From: Diadema setosum
Taxonomy: Eukaryota > Echinodermata > Echinoidea > Diadematoida > Diadematidae
Length of the DNA stretch: 64,000 nt
NCBI RefSeq assembly: GCF_964275005.1
Contig: NC_092697.1
Coordinates: 16,084,138 to 16,148,137, forward strand
Reading direction: 5' to 3'
Shown: positions 27,268-63,643 of the stretch, one piece after another
How positions within the stretch are numbered: position 1 is the stretch's first letter
Layout: each line of letters starts with the position of its first letter
Program-made: the position numbers and the translations under genes
The notes under the pieces: model-generated
Database searches by the model: none
What the model was told of the DNA's origin: nothing
What the model saw: only the letters and a program-made list of their open reading frames with translations

Positions 27268-27516
27268 TTAGCTGCTAAAAGTGACGTTTTCGTATGTCCC
27301 ATCTTTCCCTGGAGGCTCATGAAATTCAACGTTGCCATACGTGTGCTCCCCATTCTGGTCGGTGTCCAGCTGCCGTCTTTCCGTCGGATCACTGCCCGCG
27401 CTCGGCCGGTCGGTGTTCTCGTAGATGTTTTCATCGCTAGGTAACGAAGGAACCTGTTGCACCTTGTTTCTGAACAAATACTCCTCGATCACAGAGTATA
27501 TAAATCTGTACTGCTC
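27268..27516 (-). CDS. RPTP exon 29: D2 end, YxN tail and stop
   Basis: Codes [15 protein letters not shown], then a hydrophilic tail with NIYENTD, HTYGNVE and GTYENVT before a TAA at 27268-27270. The three tyrosines (1417, 1445, 1460) each have Asn at +2, the Grb2-SH2 preference. Acceptor CGTGTTCAG. Confidence 0.95.
   Translation of the reverse strand, partial: EQYRFIYSVIEEYLFRNKVQQVPSLPSDENIYENTDRPSAGSDPTERRQLDTDQNGEHTYGNVEFHEPPGKDGTYENVTFSS

Positions 27517-63643: not shown

Follow-up and report, generated by a model that had tools for sequence, protein, structure and literature searches.

In Tie receptors, the modules of the ectodomain follow the order Ig1-Ig2-EGF-Ig3-FN3x3, and the cytoplasmic region is a kinase. 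The ectodomains of known tandem receptor protein tyrosine phosphatases (RPTPs), by comparison, are of the Ig-FN3, the MAM-Ig-FN3 or a short glycosylated type, and to our knowledge receptor kinases and receptor phosphatases constitute separate families with separate ectodomains. In sea urchins, the phosphatase survey by Byrum et al. of 2006 reportedly includes lineage-specific RPTPs with novel ectodomains (PTPRLec and PTPRscav), two features in which the gene considered here resembles them. VE-PTP (PTPRB), a receptor phosphatase, acts on Tie-2 (PMC10815196), and R3 RPTPs feature FN3 ectodomains, a single PTP domain and predicted C-terminal YxN sites (PMC5336234).

The gene described here lies on the minus strand of a 64,000-nucleotide stretch of Diadema setosum DNA (contig NC_092697.1, positions 16,084,138 to 16,148,137; hereafter the window, its contig being designated C13) and combines a Tie-type ectodomain with the cytoplasmic region of a tandem RPTP. 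This combination, which had been put forward in an original prediction made from the sequence, is supported by PDB matches to Tie2, by a single continuous frame and by matches to RPTPs. On balance we favour the reading that it is one intact type I RPTP gene with a Tie-derived ectodomain, a tandem RPTP inside the cell, an origin by exon shuffling and a presumed signalling role.

Twenty-eight exons, read from window position 63643 to 27268, form a single open frame, 1,422 residues long, that ends in TAA (4,268 coding bases including the stop codon), and all 27 introns, which within the window are up to 7.9 kb long, carry a GT donor and an AG acceptor. Each boundary between ectodomain modules is in phase 1, and the intron within FN3-3 is in phase 0. 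The exons were identified visually in the three frames of the minus strand and then joined by script; since the borders were chosen with the frame in mind, the agreement of phases is supporting and not independent evidence. The encoded order of domains is Ig2, four EGF modules, Ig3, three FN3 modules, one transmembrane-like helix, the phosphatase domains D1 and D2, and a tail. All elements named in the original prediction were recovered from the minus-strand frames and the splice join in the order and at the positions it had given, and the list was extended by a 37-nt exon of D1, by EGF4 and by a Tie-like Ig1 outside the window. The intron between EGF3 and EGF4 contains an open frame of 672 residues in which a domain of reverse transcriptase is recognised (RVT_1, 5e-40; 52539-54554, minus). 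On the 3' side of the gene, the minus strand holds exons of a nucleobase/ascorbate-type permease (PF00860) at 16704-17000, 9689-9985 and 6020-6262, as well as a permease exon at 21245-21577 whose PF00860 match falls below the family cut-off.

The Ig2 exon (63383-63643, phase 1-1; acceptor TTCTACAG, donor GTAAGT), placed by alignment to Tie2 from the PDB, begins in phase 1, and the start of the gene must therefore lie outside the window. Ig2 is preceded, at a distance of 10.7 kb, by a Tie-like Ig1 exon (C13:16158455-16158769) whose phase-1 donor matches the Ig2 exon; this exon lies 10.3 kb past the edge of the window. No convincing signal-peptide exon was found upstream, and a candidate at about 80.88 kb was rejected as it is devoid of a good donor. 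Just 5' of Ig2, in another frame (window ~63690-63627, minus), a signal-peptide-like run starting MNTNVIVPILLCVC represents either chance or an alternative start; it was rejected as the start of this gene because the Tie-like Ig1 exon sits further upstream.

The following modules of the ectodomain, all encoded on the minus strand, comprise the EGF1 exon (61411-61545), which is the counterpart of Tie EGF1, the EGF2 exon (60286-60450) with FCLPDPYGC, and the EGF3 exon (59533-59667), each placed by alignment to Tie2 from the PDB and by shuffles with fixed cysteines. EGF4 (51500-51631), which is extra in comparison with Tie2, was placed by the splice model and the same shuffles, and Ig3 (49937-50212), which opens with GIQRM, a motif also present in Tie, by the splice model. 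The splice model and Pfam likewise delimit FN3-1 (49248-49559), FN3-2 (48568-48876) and the two halves of FN3-3 (46911-46981 and 44465-44699). Thus the motif across the Ig2-EGF1 intron, FCLPDPYGC, GIQRM and the three FN3 modules, by which a Tie relationship had been proposed, were each located, and the Ig-Ig-EGF-Ig-FN3x3 organisation of Tie is found, with Ig1 lying outside the window.

The three best of 12 PDB matches of the region from Ig1 to Ig3 are Tie2 (E 7.8e-40 to 1.4e-39), and the fourth is an EGF protein (E 6.3e-6); hence the best ectodomain match is Tie2 and not an ordinary EGF protein, by about 33 orders of magnitude. The alignment to Tie2 begins in the last third of Ig1, the only part of this module that aligns in the PDB search, and extends collinearly, free of rearrangement, to EGF3. 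In pairwise scoring of modules against Tie2, with 300 shuffles in which the cysteines were kept fixed, EGF1 pairs best with Tie2 EGF1 (z 7.9) and EGF2 with Tie2 EGF2 (z 13.1), scores that none of the 300 shuffles attains in either case. EGF3 scores highest with Tie2 EGF3, but no more specifically than with EGF1 (z 4.2 vs 4.4), while EGF4, a module beyond the three of Tie2, is most like EGF3. The resemblance of Ig2 to its Tie2 counterpart is weak (z 3.5, with 3 of 300 shuffles reaching the score). For the part from Ig3 through the FN3 modules, titin and PTPRF score best and Tie2 ranks fifth, behind titin, PTPRF and PTPRD. Pfam recognises fn3 in three stretches of the spliced protein (E 5.5e-30) and, at a threshold of E 0.1, neither an Ig nor an EGF family; with Ig1 added, the sole row is EGF_laminin at E 2.3. 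As Ig2 is weak, the FN3 modules are generic and Pfam is silent, the Tie ancestry is carried chiefly by the EGF1-EGF2 block, the diagnostic motif and the order of modules. Among the genome matches listed, the human Tie2 EGF block finds its strongest counterparts in tandem-EGF frames on C14, where long open frames of 781-1061 residues with tandem EGF modules occur at 17.19-17.21 Mb and 27.80 Mb, which we take to be MEGF/SCARF-like. These frames align several modules per exon, so similarity to the Tie2 EGF block is not diagnostic by itself. Taken together, the window gene has in common with Tie1/Tie2 (TEK), including the sea-urchin Tie1/2, the similarity of EGF1 and EGF2 and the FCLPDPYGC motif, and it differs from them by a tandem phosphatase in place of the kinase, a fourth EGF module and the weak match of Ig2.

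Downstream of FN3-3, a single exon for a transmembrane helix (43752-43851), recognised by eye as a hydrophobic run followed by RRRRK, separates the ectodomain from the phosphatase domains, and two juxtamembrane exons follow at 42691-42767 (splice model) and 42039-42265 (splice model and alignment to RPTP structures). D1 is encoded by seven exons, namely 41419-41506 with KNRYKNILP and 40826-40902 (both splice model and Pfam), the 37-nt exon 39813-39849 (splice model), and then 38123-38220, 37488-37613, 36607-36755 with the WPD loop, and 35678-35813 with the catalytic cysteine motif and QTK, these four being defined by the splice model and by relatives in the genome. The splice model further yields the exon of the D1-D2 linker and the beginning of D2 (35019-35168), the D2 exons 33883-33982, 32523-32596, 31852-31980, 30388-30519, 29166-29317, in which WPR replaces WPD, and 28491-28626 with HCMDGVGRTG, and finally the C-terminal exon 27268-27516 with YENT, YGNV, YENV and the stop codon TAA. 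The predicted succession of a membrane helix and two phosphatase domains is thereby accounted for.

Pfam assigns two stretches of the spliced protein to PF00102 (Y_phosphatase, E 1.9e-142). Among PDB sequences, the best scores of the cytoplasmic half are obtained with PTPRS and LAR, D1 aligning to both PTP domains of the target in the two PTPRS alignments examined, and the PTPRA tandem aligns end to end (query 60-591). D1 alone scores 215 bits with PTPRT and with PTPRK, and 213 bits with PTPRM and with 2nv5, an entry labelled only protein-tyrosine-phosphatase; these single-domain scores of 213-215 bits are too close to pick the RPTP class that donated the PTP cassette. For D2 alone, PTPRA D2 is nearest. 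The catalytic residues that had been ascribed to D1 are present, comprising the WPD acid, the HCX5R-type motif and QTK, so that its motifs are complete. D2 retains the cysteine and the arginine and has lost the WPD acid, and from the WPR in its place D2 is predicted to be a pseudophosphatase. Each of the three tyrosines that follow D2 has N at +2; such Y-x-N motifs, when phosphorylated, are read as Grb2-type SH2 sites. With tandem RPTPs (LAR/PTPRS and PTPRA/E, D1 being also near PTPRK/M/T), the window gene has in common a TM-like helix, an RPTP-type juxtamembrane region, an active-type D1 and a degenerate D2, whereas its Tie-type ectodomain and the tail with three Y-x-N sites set it apart. VE-PTP, as an R3 member, is alike in the predicted C-terminal YxN sites of this class and differs in the FN3 ectodomain and the single PTP domain.

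The long introns and the reverse transcriptase frame between EGF3 and EGF4 would also suit a Tie-type ectodomain gene and an adjacent RPTP gene that were read as one, or a join made by the assembly. Against this stand the one frame that runs across every junction, from FN3-3 through the TM and juxtamembrane exons into D1, with a single TM-like exon after FN3-3, as well as the same order of modules in a copy on contig C1 and the recurrence of the adjacency elsewhere in the genome, both of which are treated below. Moreover, no Tie-like kinase exon lies nearby: the human TIE2 kinase domain, a query verified to be identical to PDB 2oo8, has no match in the window and the 40 kb upstream (best E 0.58), and the best 145 of 683 candidates of a PF07714 scan include none in the same interval. 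As positive control, the same TIE2 query retrieved three exons with E 8e-18 to 8e-15 at another locus (L037). Membership of the window gene among Tie kinases was therefore rejected, and two adjacent genes or an assembly artefact are very unlikely; the view of the original prediction that the exons belong to one gene is supported.

On C1, exon matches between 48405003 and 48454612 follow one another on one strand in the order Ig2 end, EGF1, EGF2, EGF3, two EGF4-like modules and Ig3, and continue on that strand with FN3 modules, a TM-like frame, D1 and D2. The query with the window ectodomain places Ig1 of this copy at C1:48401793. Its EGF1 is 71% identical to that of the window gene and its EGF2, with FCLPDPFGC, 56%. 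A splice model exists for the window gene alone, the C1 loci being known from exon matches. In D1 of the C1 copy (L021-L024 and L033; C1:48405000-48454999), CSAGVGRTG is kept and WSK stands in the place of WPD, which predicts a catalytically weak or dead domain; hence not all members of the family should be catalytic. The large size of the family and the loss of the WPD acid in one or more of its members would be compatible with the window gene itself being a recently degraded or non-expressed copy, a reading to which we give little credence, given that 28 of 28 exons are open and the catalytic motifs of D1 are complete. A third locus at C1 48.49-48.50 Mb features Ig3 and two FN1-like exons, one of them 83% identical to the C1 copy, with PTP exons downstream on the same strand. 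When the C1 loci are compared with one another, the three FN1-like exons, of which two belong to the same locus, give dN/dS ratios of 0.50-0.67 and the single Ig3 pair gives 0.24; this is a pattern of constraint that is relaxed in FN1.

In the genome as a whole, PF00102 exons cluster on C13 and C1 among the best 150 of 317 candidates. With the window ectodomain as query, Tie-type EGF1 exons were found at at least 23 places (best 90 of 349 matches), and the human Tie2 ectodomain, with letters taken from the PDB, added at least 23 further EGF1 exons (best 150 of 246). The rows kept are single-module exons, many of them followed by an EGF2-type exon, and those left out of the resulting 46, a number that takes in duplicate-looking loci uncollapsed, are the C14 rows, both tandem-EGF frames and others, the C15 rows except 12081902, EGF2-only rows and rows already found; for the pairing, the PTP rows on C1, C13, C15 and C24 were used. 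At least 20 of the 46 EGF1 exons have a PTP exon on the same strand within 60 kb downstream, compared among the matches listed with 6 for same-strand upstream, 1 for opposite-strand downstream and 1 for opposite-strand upstream; the excess of 20 over the single opposite-strand downstream case further argues against two genes read as one. For the first query alone, the same-strand downstream count within 60 kb is at least 9 of 23. Within 100 kb, the respective counts among the matches listed are 25, 12, 9 and 2 of 46. The value of 25 was reached in none of 2,000 strand shuffles (mean 13.5, maximum 23) and in none of 2,000 circular shifts (mean 1.6, maximum 19). The 6 of 46 same-strand upstream at 60 kb and the 9 of 46 opposite-strand downstream at 100 kb are as arrays would give. 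For 17 of the 46 EGF1 exons, among them the closest EGF1 relative (C13:17866624), the matches listed include no PTP exon on the same strand in the 150 kb downstream; the Tie kinase gene and its neighbour account for two of these. Since the matches are listed by exon, the pairing is no proof for each single locus.

Leaving aside long exons of LAR type, which are ranked high by their E-values, close relatives of D1 and D2 occur at C13 4.92, 5.00-5.02 and 5.13-5.14 Mb, and each of these loci is also preceded, on its own strand, by Tie-type EGF1. For a near D1/D2 relative at C13 30.83 Mb, no Tie-type exon appears among the matches listed. At the RPTP loci C13 23.145-23.185 Mb (L017-L020) and 34.215-34.255 Mb (L029-L032), FN3-like frames were seen upstream by eye and no Tie exon was found in the upstream stretch examined; judged by eye, these loci at 23.17 and 34.24 Mb represent a group of FN3-type RPTPs on the same contig. 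The RPTP locus at 18.26 Mb has no Tie exon in the stretch examined, but the Tie2 search finds a Tie-type EGF1 74 kb upstream. RPTP repeats with equal or similar scores occur at C13 10.27-10.28 and 10.60-10.61 Mb (offset ~326 kb), at C13 5.00-5.02 and 5.13-5.14 Mb (offset ~128 kb) and at C1 48.45 and 48.87 Mb (offset ~420 kb), and the equal scores together with the near-constant spacing indicate that the copies include recent segmental duplicates or false ones.

A true Tie kinase, for which a search of the same genome had been advised, is present at 6.594-6.637 Mb on C13, the contig of the window gene. The TIE2 kinase domain matches C13:6598356 with 62% and C13:6594615 with 71% identity; by E-value these rank 11th and 15th of 17 rows, after longer kinase frames, and by identity they are the top two. 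The sequence around C13:6598356 reads as Tie-like kinase exons including the catalytic loop. About 38 kb 5' of the kinase exons and on the same strand, a Tie-type EGF1 exon at C13:6636906 is 58% identical to Tie2 over 45 residues, a value exceeded among the matches listed only by a 36-residue match at C13:10633975 (60%). An EGF2-like match at C13:6635425, also 5' of the kinase exons and on their strand, runs over two stops. A second gene is represented at C13:6554900-6556300 (L036), some 40 kb to the 3' side of the exons for the Tie kinase, by Ig2 and EGF1 exons of Tie type. A kinase exon at C13:6460247 was rejected as the partner of the Tie-type ectodomain at 6555218, as its sequence reads like that of a polo-like kinase.

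How the window gene arose and works may be outlined from genomic sequence, namely from its architecture, frame and homology, the recurrence of Tie-type and PTP exons and the separate Tie kinase. By exon shuffling, a Tie-type ectodomain would have been joined to an RPTP cassette at the phase-1 intron that separates FN3-3 from the TM exon, an origin suggested by the intron phases and by the RPTP-like look of the TM exon, as judged by eye, and the hybrid would then have been duplicated to yield the family on C13 and C1. The gene is presumably transcribed, and the Tie-like tip of Ig and EGF modules would bind an extracellular ligand, which may be of the Tie type or may have drifted. D1 would dephosphorylate tyrosines of neighbouring receptors or adaptors, while D2, whose acid loop reads WPR, may serve as a regulatory pseudophosphatase. 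The three Y-x-N sites of the tail, once phosphorylated, could recruit Grb2-type SH2 adaptors. In this way the receptor would modulate or counteract signalling by tyrosine kinases in cells responsive to Tie-type ligands, and members devoid of WPD could act as traps. As a more tentative extension, tens of phosphatase-coupled Tie-type receptors, both active and pseudo-active, might oppose the Tie kinase by way of shared or related ligands, possibly with diversified recognition, such that Tie would read the ligand as phosphorylation and its RPTP relatives would read it as dephosphorylation.

Possible, if doubtful, is a diversified recognition family whose ectodomains have departed from angiopoietin-like ligands and which comprises immune, allorecognition or adhesion receptors that repress kinase signalling. 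The many clustered loci on C13 and C1, the higher dN/dS of the FN1-like exons of the C1 loci relative to Ig3 and the weak conservation of Ig2 point in this direction, as does the occurrence of sea-urchin Tie1/2 in coelomocytes and the axial organ that PMC12113024 reports. On the other side, a dN/dS below 1 does not amount to positive selection, the ratios come from only three FN1-like and two Ig3 exons, and the size of an array alone is no sign of immune function.

No description of a Tie-type RPTP was found in the literature searched, a scope outside of which lie the 2006 sea-urchin phosphatase survey and the RefSeq echinoderm annotation; the statement of the original prediction that no named receptor has this make-up agrees with that literature but falls short of proof. 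What appears to be new, judging by sequence, is an RPTP that carries the ectodomain of a receptor kinase and does so in many copies. Under the favoured reading of one intact RPTP gene with a Tie-derived ectodomain, the ectodomain of a receptor kinase appears to have been moved to phosphatases and multiplied, while the Tie kinase was retained on the same contig. If true, the sensing part of one receptor was rewired from adding phosphate to removing it, and the family would constitute a natural experiment in which one extracellular input is wired to opposite phosphotyrosine outputs. Moreover, it would open ligand recognition by Tie-type ectodomains outside the vertebrates to binding assays.
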